Both the position numbers and the translations under genes were made by a program. This document shows, in pieces, positions 27,103 through 32,250 of a DNA stretch of 64,000 bases. Source of the stretch: Haloarcula japonica DSM 6131. Lineage in GTDB: Archaea; Halobacteriota; Halobacteria; Halobacteriales; Haloarculaceae. Under the pieces are notes generated by a model. That model ran no database searches, had not been told where the DNA came from, and worked only from the letters and a program-made list of their open reading frames with translations. The stretch covers positions 215,894 through 279,893 of the forward strand of contig NZ_AOLY01000037.1 of NCBI RefSeq assembly GCF_000336635.1, read 5' to 3'. The first letter of the stretch is position 1. Every line of letters begins with the position of its first letter.

Positions 27103-27123
27103 ACGTCACCCTTAGGTGTGCGA

Positions 27124-27324
27124 CCGGCAAACTGCTAGTGCGTGCCTTCAATCCCCGGCTGAGACCCGTCACCGGGACGATGACGACCCGGAGAACCCGG
27201 GCACGCGACATGACCGCGGTTCATACCGCATCCGGTCGTCTTACGACGACCCGCCAGACGGTTGCACCGTCTGGGCGTTCGGTGATTACGCCGTAATCAC
27301 CCGCCCGGCACGAGGGTTTGCCGG
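27124..27324. other. Array of perfect hairpins; candidate structured RNA
   Basis: Within 201 bases I find six or more exact stem-loops: 5-bp stem with loop TCAT (27216-27229), 7-bp stem with loop TTAC (27234-27251), 7-bp stem with loop TTGCA (27255-27273), an 8-bp stem inside a 5-bp stem (27273-27306), and CCGGCA/TGCCGG (27305-27324). Longer pairings enclose them: 27140-27146 with 27200-27206, and CCGGCAAAC (27124-27132) with GTTTGCCGG (27316-27324). The last two pairings compete for the same bases. No protein frame fits. A TATA-like element at 27411-27419 could drive it on the minus strand. Confidence 0.55.
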
Positions 27325-27350
27325 CTGACGTGGCACACCGCCGAGGATGA

Positions 27351-27374
27351 TGCCGGACGTTAGTGTTCCGGGCG
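27351..27374. repeat. Left edge stem-loop of the AT-rich island (14-bp direct repeat copy 1)
   Basis: The bases 27361-27374 (TAGTGTTCCGGGCG) are identical to 30824-30837. Here they form a stem-loop with the preceding GCCGGA (about 27351-27356). Base composition drops sharply right after this copy, and the second copy lies at the other end of the AT-rich segment, 3.46 kb away. Confidence 0.55.
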
Positions 27375-27410
27375 CACATTTCGAGTATGCTATTAGAATA
27401 GTCTAAGAAT

Positions 27411-27420
27411 AATATAAATC
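27411..27420. promoter_or_regulatory. TATA-like element usable on either strand
   Basis: AATATAAATC reads as a TATA box in both directions. On the plus strand it would start RNA near 27445, where a minute frame (ATG 27444) begins; on the minus strand it would start RNA near 27390 running through the hairpin array at 27124-27324. Confidence 0.3.
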
Positions 27421-27813
27421 ACTTCAGTCAGAGACTACCGTTGAATGGGATTCACCCGTAGTAGCCACTCTTTCTTGCCGGGTATCGGAAAATGGCGATG
27501 ATAACGATCCAGGAATGAGGTCTGCCGGGATTACTGACATCAGTCGGCTTTCGATGACCGTGCAAGATACAAGGCGCGAGTCTTATACGATTACCCAGTC
27601 CGTTCGGGGCAGTTCAGCTCGGTCAGTACAGATGAACGATGTATCGCAAAAGCGTAAACTATTCAAAAATATATTCGAAGTCGCCAGTGAGATACAGGGG
27701 ATGAGTGCAGCACTTTGTCGCTGGTTCTTTCAGAGCTAGCGTCTGAGAATCGCGCGTTCCTACCGCTGGTATTCTGTGTTCAAAATAAAGTCGCCAATGC
27801 TGTAGCATTATCG

Positions 27814-27821
27814 ATATAAAC
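27814..27821 (+). promoter_or_regulatory. Probable TATA box of the ATP-grasp operon
   Basis: GATATAAAC (about 27813-27821) lies about 55-60 bases upstream of the ATP-grasp coding region, which predicts a start of transcription near 27845 and a leader of about 30 bases before the GTG/TTG start. The surroundings (27750-27870) are very AT-rich. Confidence 0.4.
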
Positions 27822-27874
27822 ATTTGTTGAAATAATGTAATGAATTCTACCTAATGTTAAGCAACACTTAATTG

Positions 27875-29608
27875 GTGAGCAAACATATACACGATGTGTT
27901 TAAATCGAAGCAAAAAGACTTGAAGCAGCATATACCTGCAGCAATTTTGCTGTTCGTGTTAGCAATCATCGCACTCTTTATGCGGCTCTATGCTACTGAA
28001 GTGATTCCGGTCGCAGAATCAATCCCGTTTGCATTTCAGTTGATGATTGGGGGGACCGCGCTCGCTATCTTTCGGAATGAACTTGGTTACTCGACGTTAG
28101 GTGTCTTTGGTCCGGTGATCCTTGCGTTCGCCTGGCTTGAAGTCGGTCCATTTTGGGGTTTTATTCTGATTGGATACGTCTTCATCGTCACAGCCACCGC
28201 TCGCATAGCTTTGAGCGGGTCAGATTTAGGTACTGCACACCGCGTTGCATCATTACTGGTAATTGCAAGTATCGCTACAATTGTCTTACAAATTGTCGGT
28301 CAAATACAGGGTGTTCCACCGTTAACAACACTACTTTTGTTCCCTATAATTCTCACAACCTGGTACGCCGAACGATTCATACAAGGAACTGCTGAAGACG
28401 GTTGGGCACCCGCATCTCGACGACTAACGTTCACAGTGGTTGGCGTAGCTGTAGCGTTCGTGGTGGCAGGCTATGAACCGCTTGTGAACGCAGTAATTAG
28501 AACGCCTGAATTGTGGGTTGCGCTCGTTGGTGTCAATATCTTACTTGGAGCCAGTACTAATATTCGACTGGCTGAATATACTAGATTCCGCGTTCTAAAG
28601 CGGGCTCTGGAAGCCGACAACAAAACAGACGTACTCACGATGCGTGTCCGAAATCGGGACTACGTCAGCCGATACAATCCACTTCCTCTCATGGGACTTT
28701 ATAATAAAAGCCGGATGAAACAATTCCTCCACGGTCTCAATATACCGACACCAGAGACATTCCTAATCGTTGAGACAGAGTCGGACTTGGAAGAGTTTCG
28801 TGCTCTATTGAAAAAGCGTGATAGATTCGTTGTGAAACCAATCGACGGAATGGGTGGGAGAGACGTTCTCGTTGTTAGGGGACGAGAAGGAGACGACGGG
28901 GAATTCAGAACAAATCGAGGCAACCTGACAGCTGACGAGATAACTTCTCATACACGGAAAATCTGTGTTGGTGGGACAGCGGATTATGGGGCTAAAACCA
29001 GCGCGCTCGTTGAGGCACTCGTCACCCCGGAGAGTCTTCTGGCAGACCGTATCAAGAGTGGTGTGCCTGATCTTCGCGTAATAACACTACATGGGTTCCC
29101 AATAATGGCAATGACACGACTTCCAACCGACGAGTCGAAGGGGACCGCCAATATCCACACTGGCGCAGTAGCTGTCGCTATCGACATCTCGTCGGGCAAG
29201 GCATCCGGTGGGTACCAGCAAACACAGGATCGATACGTTAGTCAGCACCCGGATACAGGTGCCTCACTGTCGTTTACAATTCCAGATTGGCAAGACGTAC
29301 TTACAACTGCGTCAAGAGCGGCAATAGCCTCCGGATTTGGGTATACTGGCGTGGATATCGTCTTCGATGCTGACCAAGGACCGATGGTGTTGGAAGTGAA
29401 CCGGCGTCCTGGTCTCGGCATCCAAAATGCCAATATGGCAGGGTTACTCGGGCGACTGCGATTTGTAGAGGCGCAGGGCGTTTCGAACCAGTTCATCAGC
29501 GCCAACGAGCGGGTTCGACGGGCAATAGAGTGGTCTACGAACAATTGGCAATCCGACGCTGCTGATGCACCACCGGATATCGATACAAAAGTAGAGGTGA
29601 ACGCATGA
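27875..29608 (+). CDS. 7TM_transglut-ATPgrasp_ST fusion: membrane-anchored RimK-like peptide ligase
   Basis: The 577-residue protein has no ATG near its start; GTG 27875 or TTG 27872 must be used. Residues 20-230 form seven or so membrane helices with the 7TM_transglut-type segments LGVFGPVILAFAW and FPIILTTWYAERFIQGTAED. Residues 250-545 are an ATP-grasp of the alpha-L-glutamate-ligase-like ATPgrasp_ST class: RNRDYVSRYNP, KPIDGMGGRDV (ATP loop, about 322), GVPDLRVITLHGFPIMAMTR and GTANIHTGAVAV, and the metal site GVDIVFDADQGPMVLEVN (about 493-510). In bacteria these two domains are normally separate neighbouring proteins; here they are fused, and the extracellular transglutaminase-like domain is missing. 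Predicted reaction: ATP-dependent amide bond formation on an unknown substrate at the inner face of the membrane. AT-rich codon use differs from neighbours, suggesting transfer. It overlaps the next gene by four bases. Confidence 0.85.
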   Translation: MSKHIHDVFKSKQKDLKQHIPAAILLFVLAIIALFMRLYATEVIPVAESIPFAFQLMIGGTALAIFRNELGYSTLGVFGPVILAFAWLEVGPFWGFILIGYVFIVTATARIALSGSDLGTAHRVASLLVIASIATIVLQIVGQIQGVPPLTTLLLFPIILTTWYAERFIQGTAEDGWAPASRRLTFTVVGVAVAFVVAGYEPLVNAVIRTPELWVALVGVNILLGASTNIRLAEYTRFRVLKRALEADNKTDVLTMRVRNRDYVSRYNPLPLMGLYNKSRMKQFLHGLNIPTPETFLIVETESDLEEFRALLKKRDRFVVKPIDGMGGRDVLVVRGREGDDGEFRTNRGNLTADEITSHTRKICVGGTADYGAKTSALVEALVTPESLLADRIKSGVPDLRVITLHGFPIMAMTRLPTDESKGTANIHTGAVAVAIDISSGKASGGYQQTQDRYVSQHPDTGASLSFTIPDWQDVLTTASRAAIASGFGYTGVDIVFDADQGPMVLEVNRRPGLGIQNANMAGLLGRLRFVEAQGVSNQFISANERVRRAIEWSTNNWQSDAADAPPDIDTKVEVNA

Positions 29609-30357
29609 ATATCACCCGTTCGTCCAGACAAGCAGTTGCTGCGGTGATCGCAGGAGTACTGCTCATCGTCCCACTATTGCTTACTGTTTTCCCCCGATAC
29701 GTCGGGAATGGATTCCCTGGCCCATATACCAGAACGGACGCGATCGTTCTCTTCTTCGTCGGTGTGCCGGTCCTCTTCGCGCTTTTTGCAGCCTATCGAG
29801 TAGCGCAGTATCATGATCTGTTTGGCACCGATAGCGAAGACCATAGCGTGTCTGCCGGTCCAGAAATAGACCATGAACATGAACCCGAATACGATGATGG
29901 TTCTCTTGTGTCAGGACCCGACCGAGTCGAAGAGGAAGTTGGCATTGAGACGGGTACTGCCGCAAGCAAGGCCACGTTCGAAGTCTACACCGACAACACT
30001 GGCGACTATCGCTGGCGACTCGTCCACCAGAACAGAAACATTATCGCTGACAGTGGCCAAGGTTACGCTTCGAAACAGAAGGTCAAGCAGGGACTCGAAA
30101 GCGTCAGGAACAACGCACCTGATGCCTATGTAATCGACCAATCAAAGGATGAAGAAGTACCCGAAGGACACGGAAGTAACACGACATTCGAACTATTTGA
30201 GGATGCGGGAGAAAAATGGCGCTGGCGACTCCGCCACGACAACGGGAATATAATCGCCGATAGCGGACAGGGCTACTCTTCGAAAAAGAAGGCCACACAG
30301 GGACTGCAAAGCGTCCAGAAGAACACACCCCGCGCACCAAGTGAAGAAACGAGATAG
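29605..30357 (+). CDS. Membrane-anchored tandem YegP/DUF1508 protein
   Basis: The 250-residue protein starts inside the ATP-grasp stop (ATGA). It has two membrane helices (about 9-29 and 45-66), an acidic linker (about 75-120) and two copies of a 50-residue YegP/DUF1508 domain (about 123-172 and 193-241). Each copy contains the hallmark YRWRLVHQNRNIIADSGQGY-like stretch and the QGLESVRNN-like helix. The two copies are clearly homologous to each other. Free-standing tandem YegP proteins are common in haloarchaea (HVO_2922 type) with unknown function; anchoring to the membrane and translational coupling to an ATP-grasp ligase is unusual. Small basic patches in the domain could bind peptide, nucleic acid or the ligase product; this is inference. 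Confidence 0.8.
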   Translation: MNITRSSRQAVAAVIAGVLLIVPLLLTVFPRYVGNGFPGPYTRTDAIVLFFVGVPVLFALFAAYRVAQYHDLFGTDSEDHSVSAGPEIDHEHEPEYDDGSLVSGPDRVEEEVGIETGTAASKATFEVYTDNTGDYRWRLVHQNRNIIADSGQGYASKQKVKQGLESVRNNAPDAYVIDQSKDEEVPEGHGSNTTFELFEDAGEKWRWRLRHDNGNIIADSGQGYSSKKKATQGLQSVQKNTPRAPSEETR

Positions 30358-30805
30358 ATTATAGAGCGGGACACAAATTTGTAGTGCTACAGTTTAGCTA
30401 CCAACAAAATACTGGAAGGGTAAGTTGTTCATGCTGAGTTCACCATCCCTGTTGAGTGATTATCGAGACCCAGATTCAGAAGTTACCCAGGGCTGACTAT
30501 GCGGCAGTATTCAACAGGACGCCGAAAATATAAATGCAACCGATAGAATTCACAACGATAGGTACGCAGGTTTAGTGAGCAGTTCGTTCAGCGTCGAGGT
30601 GGTGAAAGAAAGCACAGCGCTATGCTGAACTTATCCTCTATATCTTGCAGGCAACTTTCGACAACGTTTCGATAAGAGAACATCTATCGCTTGTAGCGCA
30701 CGTACTCCAGCCGCCCTGCCATCAGAGATGCACATTTCGACAACTCTGTCCAATTAACGGGATGAAAGATATAGAACGGTTGATTCTAGTTACACCGAGC
30801 CTACT
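30358..30805. other. AT-rich gene-free part of the island
   Basis: These roughly 450 bases contain no convincing gene. One short minus-strand frame near 30580-30625 (translation like CAFFHHLDAERTAH, interrupted by stops) may be a decayed remnant of a mobile element, but it is too short to identify. A TATA-like AAAATATAAATG is present at 30524-30535. Confidence 0.45.
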
Positions 30806-31115
30806 AGTAGAAACTCGCCCGGTAGTGTTCCGGGCGATATTCTACTACTGGAGTAAAGACGTAGCTATGTGCTGAGAGCGTCGGAAACGGAAGCTTCGAT
30901 GCGTCCTCACGAATCCGTTCGCGGAACTTCAGCCCGTTCAATCCAGGCATATCGTAGTCGCTGATAATACAGTCATACGTGTCCCGCGGGCGGTCCGTGA
31001 TGACCTCGTCGGCCCATATCGCGGTGTCGACGGTGAACGAATCCATGGTCCGCTCGAGATATGTCGCAGTTAGATCGGCAAAGTCCGGTTCGTCATCGAC
31101 ATGTAAGATGCGCAC
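30804..31115 (-). pseudogene. Truncated response regulator receiver domain
   Basis: The first 77 residues are a normal halobacterial receiver domain: HVDDEPDF at the acidic pocket and phospho-acceptor Asp in CIISDYDMPGLNGL, ending at ASKLPF. A complete relative at 42877-43638 continues after the same point with LLFTGKGSEEIA and the conserved Lys strand. Here that part is missing and is replaced by 26 unrelated residues encoded by the edge inverted repeat, so beta-4, the Thr/Ser and Lys switch residues and any output domain are gone. It is most likely a remnant cut by the island insertion; a functional phosphate sink is unlikely. Confidence 0.75.
30806..30848. repeat. Right edge inverted repeat containing 14-bp direct repeat copy 2
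   Basis: A two-part perfect inverted repeat, TAGTAGAA (30806-30813) with TTCTACTA (30841-30848) and CGCCCGG (30817-30823) with CCGGGCG (30831-30837), surrounds the loop TAGTGTT. Bases 30824-30837 repeat the 14-mer at 27361-27374 exactly. It falls at the point where the response regulator at 30884-31115 loses homology. It looks like a transposition end or recombination site. Confidence 0.6.
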
Positions 31116-31389
31116 TGAACCAACAATATGTTTAGATATTGTGCAAAAACAGTAATACGACGGTTGTCATTTCAAAGTAATATAATCAATGTATTGCCTG
31201 TCATTGGGTGAAAACACGAGTGATTGATAGAGTGCTAGTTCGGAGGGAAAGCACATCTAGGGGAAGAAATCGCCTGTTAGAAGTTCCCATAGAATATAGC
31301 CATCGTTTTCCTCTGCGTGTACAGGCCGAGCAACCAGTCATATGATTTTCAAACGACAGACAGAACAGGCCTGCTGTGACAGGGGCTAG

Positions 31390-32250
31390 TCAGAACCCGC
31401 TGCGACTGATGACACCCGCGGCGGACGAGAGTTCACCACTGAATTTCACGGTGACGTACAGGCCAGTAAACAGCGTGGCATTGTACGCGCCGTGGATGAG
31501 TGACGGAACGACAATGTTGTCCGTGTACTCGTAGGTTGTACCGAGGATGAGCGACGGAATGAGGAGGGCGCACACCCCGACAAGTTTCCCCGTGACCGAC
31601 CCACCGCTGAGGGCAGGGTAGTGAATGCCAGCGAAGATGACGCTCGCGATGGTGACGCCCGAAATCGGGCCGAAGTAGTCTCGGATGCGGCCCTGAACGA
31701 CGCCGCGGAACAGTAGTTCCTCGCCAGGGCCGATGAGGAGGAACGAGGCGGGAATCAGCAGGAGGAGGACATCGGGGTTCTCCATCCCGATCTCCGCGGC
31801 CTGATTGGTTGCCGTTTCGATCCCGAACATCGAGACGAGCGTCGTGATGACAGCGGCCACCACCACGAGCCCGACCATCGCGCTGGCGTAGCCCAGCACA
31901 ACGATGCCGGCTTCACGGAGACTCGGCACAGAAATGCCGATACTGAATGCACCGGTGTCTGGCGCATAAGAGAACATCTCGCGGAGCTTCGCTCTGATCA
32001 CCGGCCTGAGTTTGATGTACGTGTATGCGATGGCCGGGCAGCCGATTCCCTGGACCGTTATCAGCCCCAGCACGAGCGTCTGTACTTGCGTTATCTGTAC
32101 TCCTGTGCCGAGTGATAGGGAAAAAGCGATGGTGAGAAGCAGGATTGAGCCGAACCCGAGTCCTATCACACCCAGCGAGAGCGCCGAAAAAAGCGTAAAC
32201 CCGTACTGGAAGGCCTGCAGAACCGGACGGTCGCGGGTCGCCGTTGCCAT
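31390..32250 (-). CDS. CPBP-family intramembrane glutamic metalloprotease
   Basis: This 286-residue protein has about eight membrane helices and the CPBP (CAAX-protease/Abi) motifs in order: GPGEELLFRGVV (EExxxR, about 184), FAGIHYPAL (FxxxH, about 215) and SLIHGAYNA (about 263). The family includes Rce1-like prenyl-protein proteases, and in prokaryotes also bacteriocin self-immunity and membrane-protein proteases. Target unknown. The 274 bases between it and the truncated regulator are AT-rich and gene-free. Confidence 0.88.
   Translation of the reverse strand: MATATRDRPVLQAFQYGFTLFSALSLGVIGLGFGSILLLTIAFSLSLGTGVQITQVQTLVLGLITVQGIGCPAIAYTYIKLRPVIRAKLREMFSYAPDTGAFSIGISVPSLREAGIVVLGYASAMVGLVVVAAVITTLVSMFGIETATNQAAEIGMENPDVLLLLIPASFLLIGPGEELLFRGVVQGRIRDYFGPISGVTIASVIFAGIHYPALSGGSVTGKLVGVCALLIPSLILGTTYEYTDNIVVPSLIHGAYNATLFTGLYVTVKFSGELSSAAGVISRSGF

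Follow-up and report, generated by a model that had tools for sequence, protein, structure and literature searches.

We analyzed a 64,000-nucleotide stretch of DNA from Haloarcula japonica DSM 6131 (contig NZ_AOLY01000037.1, positions 215,894 to 279,893), termed here the window, which carries an AT-rich cassette of two overlapping genes, open reading frame 1 (ORF1) and ORF2. The cassette represents a real, conserved archaeal variant of the bacterial RloB-RloC system, previously unreported in the open-access literature searched, with a candidate new small subunit. Our preferred reading, which we hold with slightly better than even confidence, is that of an archaeal, horizontally moving version of RloB-RloC, composed of a membrane-anchored RimK-type ligase, probably adding glutamate, and a two-helix subunit. 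The features of the cassette are collected in Table 1.

Table 1 Features of the cassette and of its borders, in window coordinates
Feature	Position	Strand	Basis
Left copy of 17-bp direct repeat, CGTTAGTGTTCCGGGCG, immediately preceding the AT-rich segment	27358..27374		Similarity to cassette-less relatives ends here
ORF1, 8-helix membrane protein joined to a RimK-like ATP-grasp ligase (RloB 7TM + RloC)	27872..29608	+	Profile matches, AlphaFold model
7TM_transglut domain, ORF1 residues 45–242	28004..28597	+	PF14402 match, positive-inside pattern, 7TM-only model
ATPgrasp_ST (RimK-like) domain, ORF1 residues 260–533	28649..29470	+	PF14397, RimK structure alignment, Foldseek
ATGA shared by the ORF1 stop and the ORF2 start	29605..29608	+	Sequence
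Two-helix membrane protein, conserved partner, ORF2 residues 1–77	29605..29835	+	Homologues directly 3' of ORF1 homologues
First YegP/DUF1508 domain, ORF2 residues 123–176, lineage-specific addition	29971..30132	+	Profile matches, 6q2z relationship
Second YegP/DUF1508 domain, ORF2 residues ~194–244, lineage-specific addition	30184..30336	+	Profile matches, 6q2z relationship
Right copy of direct repeat, CGGTAGTGTTCCGGGCG, within a terminator-like minus-strand hairpin	30820..30836		Repeat search

ORF1 is a fusion of a membrane domain and an ATP-grasp ligase

ORF1 codes for 578 residues, starting at TTG 27872 or GTG 27875, and indeed fuses a 7TM_transglut to an ATPgrasp_ST domain, as had been proposed in an earlier note drawn up from the sequence alone. 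It matches PF14402 with 62 bits (cut-off 25) and PF14397 with 204.6 bits (cut-off 31.4), and both profiles are matched in all 20 aligned homologues. The inactive transglutaminase domain PF14400 is found neither in ORF1 nor in any of these 20 proteins, in line with the same note's remark that the extracytoplasmic transglutaminase-like module is missing. The note had counted about seven membrane helices: the membrane domain is there, but the predicted number is eight, with an extra N-terminal helix (about residues 21–39) ahead of the 7TM domain. Over the 20 homologues, the Lys and Arg counts of the loops follow the positive-inside rule without exception, with both termini inside (N-in/C-in), the means over the homologues being 2.95, 0.3, 1.6, 0, 1.5, 0.3, 3.5, 0.5, and 6.95 for successive loops. 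Five residues, Arg68, Arg124, Arg232, Glu235, and Arg238, are strictly conserved and lie in the predicted cytoplasmic loops and in the linker adjoining the ligase. The AlphaFold model of ORF1 has a mean predicted local distance difference test score (pLDDT) of 82.6 and a predicted template modeling score of 0.76, and the model of the 7TM domain on its own has a pLDDT of 87.8. As a candidate for the fold of this domain, the Rnf-complex subunit 9eri_A, the only structural match of notable probability, was retained as a weak lead only (probability 0.75, template modeling scores 0.41/0.49, E-value 1.4).

All 13 ATP-grasp positions checked (Lys279, Lys322, Gly328-Gly329, Glu381, Asp400, Arg402, Arg416, Asn427, His429, Asp495, Glu508, and Asn510) are invariant in the 20 homologues. 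The RimK signatures DxR, NxHxG, GVDI, and ExNxxPG (DIR, NLHxG, GVDI, EVNxxPG) align with those of the solved RimK alpha-glutamate ligases. When the ORF1 model was searched with Foldseek, the top matches were RimK (best 5zct), ArgX, and the peptide ligase PsnB, alongside which Ddl also matches, and the solved structures nearest to the ligase by both sequence and fold are glutamate ligases. RimK (5zct, 7qys), the S6 or poly-alpha-L-glutamate ligase, is the best match among structures and among sequences of solved proteins and has the motifs in common with ORF1; it is, however, soluble, whereas ORF1 is membrane-tethered and matches the RimK profile PF08443 with 30 bits only. Since the catalytic residues are invariant, the RimK motifs align, and the model finds RimK, ArgX, and PsnB first, ORF1 is expected to be a working, membrane-tethered ligase, most likely for glutamate, an assignment from sequence and model to which we give about an even chance.

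Relationship to the bacterial RloABC system

The bacterial counterpart is the rloABC operon of Pseudomonas aeruginosa, recently shown to take part in osmotic tolerance together with the polyglutamate-cleaving RloA proteases (PMC12239564). RloA is a secreted retropepsin with a signal peptide that cuts glutamate runs and polyglutamate in vitro, and deletion of rloB or rloC rescues cells devoid of the RloA proteases (PMC12239564), which fits RloB and RloC making what RloA trims. Bacterial rlo mutants show a hypo-osmotic phenotype (PMC12239564); rlo and inactive-transglutaminase mutants are altered in cell shape, antibiotic sensitivity, and vesicle release (PMC12239564, PMC12096838), and a transposon screen in Shewanella linked an inactive transglutaminase-7TM gene to vesicle release (PMC12096838). 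The bacterial counterparts had been described beforehand as little known: this holds for their substrate, which is unproven, but not for their role.

In Legionella (L047), Aeromonas (L048), and a gammaproteobacterial metagenome-assembled genome (MAG, L070), the two parts are separate neighboring genes, as the earlier note had stated, with the 7TM gene preceding the ATP-grasp gene and overlapping it or nearly so. A PF05618 protease gene precedes the pair in L047 and L048, and the same adjacent order, 7TM then ATP-grasp, is observed in a MAG of an archaeal phylum (L071). ORF1 resembles RloB (PF14400 and PF14402; model NF052267) in matching model positions 315–505 of 508 and in placing the 7TM part, encoded in bacteria directly upstream of the ATP-grasp gene, ahead of the ligase. 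It differs in being joined to that ligase and in having one short N-terminal helix instead of the inactive transglutaminase, and it scores 40 of 900 bits, far under the cut-off of the RloB model. Its ATP-grasp part matches the RloC-type family TIGR02291 (alpha-L-glutamate ligase-like, PF14397) over nearly the whole length with the catalytic residues retained, but with 231.3 bits against a cut-off of 314.2; moreover, RloC is a separate cytosolic protein, whereas the ORF1 ligase is membrane-tethered by the fusion. The archaeal cassette has in common with RloABC the PF14402 membrane domain and a PF14397 enzyme with intact catalytic residues; it has no PF14400 domain, no RloA protease (PF05618) in the operon, and RloB and RloC are not two proteins.

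PF05618 is matched in all 23 genomes searched and in Haloferax volcanii. The RimK encoded in the genome of the window forms a fusion with a RimB/retropepsin-like domain that has a DTGAT motif (L096:349-1752). A PF05618 protein as dedicated partner of the cassette was rejected: the one examined is this RimK-RimB fusion, and matches also occur in H. volcanii. A natural fusion of the RloC-RloA type, ATPgrasp_ST with a C-terminal PF05618 retropepsin-like domain, is present in Candidatus Dojkabacteria (L064:8625-10085). No active transglutaminase gene is recurrent beside the haloarchaeal cassettes.

Distribution and origin of the fusion

Of 391 Halobacteria genomes, 23, from 15 genera, have a PF14402 match, and the matches lie at unrelated loci. 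The recurrence anticipated in the earlier note is borne out; the note had also allowed that the fusion might turn out to be a common, already characterized family, and the family is indeed recurrent, but the open-access literature searched holds no earlier report of an archaeal RloB-RloC fusion, a mention in Iyer et al. 2009 being possible. In Halobacteria, PF14402 and the ATP-grasp domain nearly always share one open frame of about 500–812 residues, uninterrupted in the 20 aligned loci, split by frame in L037 and L039 (= L051), and decayed in L045. In the contig search, a single-protein query gave no match and an alignment query did.

A tree built from 36 ATP-grasp domains places the 27 fused-type rows, among them a Thermoplasmatota MAG, on one side of a branch with support of 100/99; the other nine rows come from loci at which ATP-grasp and 7TM are encoded by separate genes. 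Because all fused rows fall on one side of this branch, the fusion most likely arose once. In the Thermoplasmatota MAG (L059), the fusion gene overlaps, through TGATG, a separate transglutaminase-like gene (L059:9644-10714), whose product is secreted and C-terminally anchored (PF01841, 72.6 bits), with Ser at the position expected for the catalytic Cys and the His and Asp kept. This one MAG suggests that the inactive transglutaminase may first have split off and later been lost in haloarchaea.

The RloB-type protein of the gammaproteobacterial MAG (L070:4305-5939) apparently keeps the transglutaminase Cys-His-Asp triad (SCNGKS...SHQW...) and may be active. In Candidatus Kerfeldbacteria (L068:6361-7974), a PKD domain replaces the transglutaminase ahead of the 7TM. 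The extracytoplasmic module is exchangeable among the relatives surveyed, being an inactive transglutaminase, an apparently intact one, a PKD domain, or none, which argues for the membrane-ligase core as the functional unit.

A small two-helix protein accompanies the fusion

ORF2 codes for 250 residues (29605–30357) with two membrane helices and two YegP domains, as the earlier note had described, and overlaps ORF1 by the four bases ATGA that it had pointed out. A start/stop overlap or immediate adjacency likewise occurs at most homologous loci, mostly through ATGA or a similar join. The N-terminal part of ORF2 belongs to a family of small proteins of 60–100 residues with two helices, which adjoin almost every ORF1 copy examined. 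The partner is detected by sequence directly downstream at all intact haloarchaeal loci searched, except L029, L060, and L057, at which the likeness is one of position and hairpin only, with no significant score. L029 and L060 are Salinigranum-type ORF1 proteins and, if the hairpins at their C-termini are real partners, would be natural partner-ligase fusions; no alignment of the small-protein rows with the L060 candidate was obtained.

The profile of the small family was seeded from nine partner loci, for which its E-values are circular; independent support comes from phmmer matches of ORF2 itself beside ORF1 homologues, with E-values from 1.6e-21 to 7e-4. Likewise independent is the search of the 391 genomes, in which clear matches to the two-helix profile adjoin only ORF1 homologues or, in G013, a decayed ATP-grasp remnant. 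Six weak matches in ORFs of 563–589 residues were judged to be due to chance, the two inspected resembling sodium-symporter-type transporters. These data point to the two-helix protein as a putative new small subunit of the archaeal RloB-RloC variant, which would form a physical complex with ORF1.

Proposed mechanism and alternatives

In the mechanism that we propose, ORF1 would anchor a RimK-type ligase in the membrane, where its cytoplasmic ATP-grasp domain would form amide bonds at the expense of ATP; the reaction would most likely attach glutamate or build a short poly-alpha-glutamate chain. The eight-helix domain would tether the enzyme and either pass the product across the membrane or let the state of the membrane control the reaction, and the two-helix protein (ORF2 residues 1–77), made by overlapping translation, would be a subunit of the complex. 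The tandem YegP domains, on the cytoplasmic side, would have been added late and may serve as an adaptor. The system may have a role in osmotic or envelope stress. In P. aeruginosa the product is probably at least partly outside the cytoplasm, since the protease carries a signal peptide (PMC12239564).

Several observations weigh against this proposal. No substrate has been demonstrated for RloC proteins in the literature searched, and the haloarchaeal cassettes have no recurrent neighbor coding for an RloA-like secreted protease, as the earlier note had stated for the window (no RimB/RloA-like neighbor); the only PF05618 protein found in the genome of the window, the RimK-RimB fusion, is encoded on another contig. 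Comparison of the 7TM domain with solved structures gave nothing significant (best E-value 0.38). PgsC/CapC (PF14102), a membrane protein that likewise has an ATP-dependent glutamate ligase as its partner, is a parallel in idea only: the motif order looks alike by eye, but homology was rejected, as hhalign gave no significant similarity (probability at most about 3%), and PF14102 is not matched in the 20 ORF1 homologues. As the membrane domain has neither a significant solved relative nor CapC similarity, export by ORF1 is a guess. A more specific form of the proposal, which we hold less likely than not, is a minimal membrane-embedded (poly)glutamate synthase-exporter, in which the fused protein and its two-helix subunit would make a glutamyl polymer inside and deliver it to the outside, neither a transglutaminase-like module nor a dedicated protease for trimming being involved. 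If true, archaea would have a new way of producing an acidic polymer that is secreted or lies at the surface.

Glutamate chemistry itself can be questioned: the ligase could act on a glycan, lipid, or peptide precursor of the envelope that is held by the membrane domain, and attach an amino acid or a peptide to a polymer of the cell surface. The Pfam family name "sugar-transfer associated", the diversity of the ATP-grasp enzymes that the model matches structurally, Ddl and PsnB among them, and the envelope changes of the bacterial mutants (PMC12239564, PMC12096838) speak for such a substrate. We nevertheless consider it unlikely, as no glycan- or lipid-synthesis genes are recurrent beside the cassettes across unrelated loci and the nearest solved structures are glutamate ligases.

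The membrane domain might instead be a sensor and not a channel, with the osmotic or membrane state switching a cytoplasmic glutamylating enzyme whose product stays inside the cell. The hypo-osmotic phenotype of the bacterial rlo mutants (PMC12239564) and the conserved charged residues of the cytoplasmic loops and linker are consistent with such a switch, against which stands the signal peptide of the opposing protease in P. aeruginosa (PMC12239564); we regard this explanation as rather improbable.

The YegP domains are local to the window copy

The two C-terminal domains of ORF2 match PF07411 (DUF1508) in two stretches, with 127 bits in total, and the HVO_2922 family NF041908 also in two stretches, with 197.4 bits (cut-off 90); their solved relative is the UPF0339 protein 6q2z. 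ORF2 differs from HVO_2922/YegP (DUF1508, UPF0339) proteins in carrying these domains C-terminal to a two-helix membrane protein. YegP domains at the partner position are restricted to the window copy and absent from every other haloarchaeal locus examined. Residues 78–250 of ORF2 match, with 60–64% identity, a Haloarcula gene that most members of the genus carry, including a copy in the same genome on another contig; these homologues have a different N-terminus and lack the helices of ORF2. The YegP part is thus an addition in this lineage, being absent at the other loci and matching an independent gene.

The earlier note had made a YegP protein the partner of the fusion, and on this point it does not stand: the recurring partner is the small two-helix protein. 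Of the peptide-bond-forming membrane machine that it had envisaged, the membrane-bound ATP-grasp ligase with intact catalytic residues holds, while a YegP binder is not a general part. That the tandem domains define the machine by binding its substrate or product is accordingly hard to credit: they are covalently joined to the conserved partner and predicted to be cytoplasmic, on the same side as the ligase, but the other loci do without them. The main novelty of that note, the YegP part, is a local feature.

The cassette is mobile

The segment 27500–30500 has the lowest G+C content of all 3-kb segments of the window, 0.494 against a mean of 0.625 (standard deviation 0.035), which agrees with the GC-poor character reported before; the value for ORF1 and ORF2 together is 0.506. 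The limits first noted for the cassette, 27375–30823, correspond to the interval between the two copies of a 17-bp direct repeat, identical at 16 of 17 positions, of which the earlier note had made no mention. The 14-mer core of the repeat has two matches only in the 64 kb, both exact, where 0.7 would be expected with up to two mismatches. The relatives with a short interval (L122-L126) carry the 17-bp sequence once, whereas in the window the cassette is flanked by two copies. Relatives keep the flanking genes, with little or quite different genes in between.

A 2,384-bp stretch restricted to the cassette is 99.9% identical between a plasmid of Halobacterium sp. DL1 and a chromosome from another family, and in the ATP-grasp tree the window ORF1 clusters with Halorubrum-type copies and not with the Haloarcula salina copy. 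The cassette is horizontally moving and sometimes decayed. That it is a mobile gene pair serving defence or conflict, for which one could cite the patchy distribution, the decayed copies, the near-identical unit in two haloarchaeal families, and the variable chromosomal slot, is very improbable, given that PADLOC has no match for ORF1 or ORF2, that neither a phage-record match nor recurring defence neighbors beside the cassettes were found, and that the bacterial counterpart is a stress-tolerance operon.

The variable Haloarcula slot (window 27103–31390 and L122-L132) extends from a flavin adenine dinucleotide-dependent (geranylgeranyl-reductase-like) gene to a CAAX-protease gene, and in other genomes it holds a TAXI/TRAP-like transporter, permeases, and other cargo. 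A second copy of the 17-bp repeat is found at this slot in L129. Beside the right repeat, the minus strand of the window (30807–31115) encodes a shortened response-regulator receiver domain. Because its similarity to relatives begins only at 30886, insertion of the cassette may have truncated a longer response-regulator gene. In a Halorubrum-type genome (L143, G013), a decayed cassette adjoins a TnpB-like gene; its ATP-grasp remnant has broken motifs, and the small two-helix gene is still open.

Significance

RloB-RloC-type pairs have effects on osmotic survival, biofilm, and antibiotic tolerance in Pseudomonas. A one-chain version that does without transglutaminase and protease points to the 7TM domain and the ligase as the indispensable parts, joined in archaea by the two-helix subunit. 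The cassette is present in Haloferax species, close to a genetic model, which makes the question of the substrate testable in a non-pathogen.

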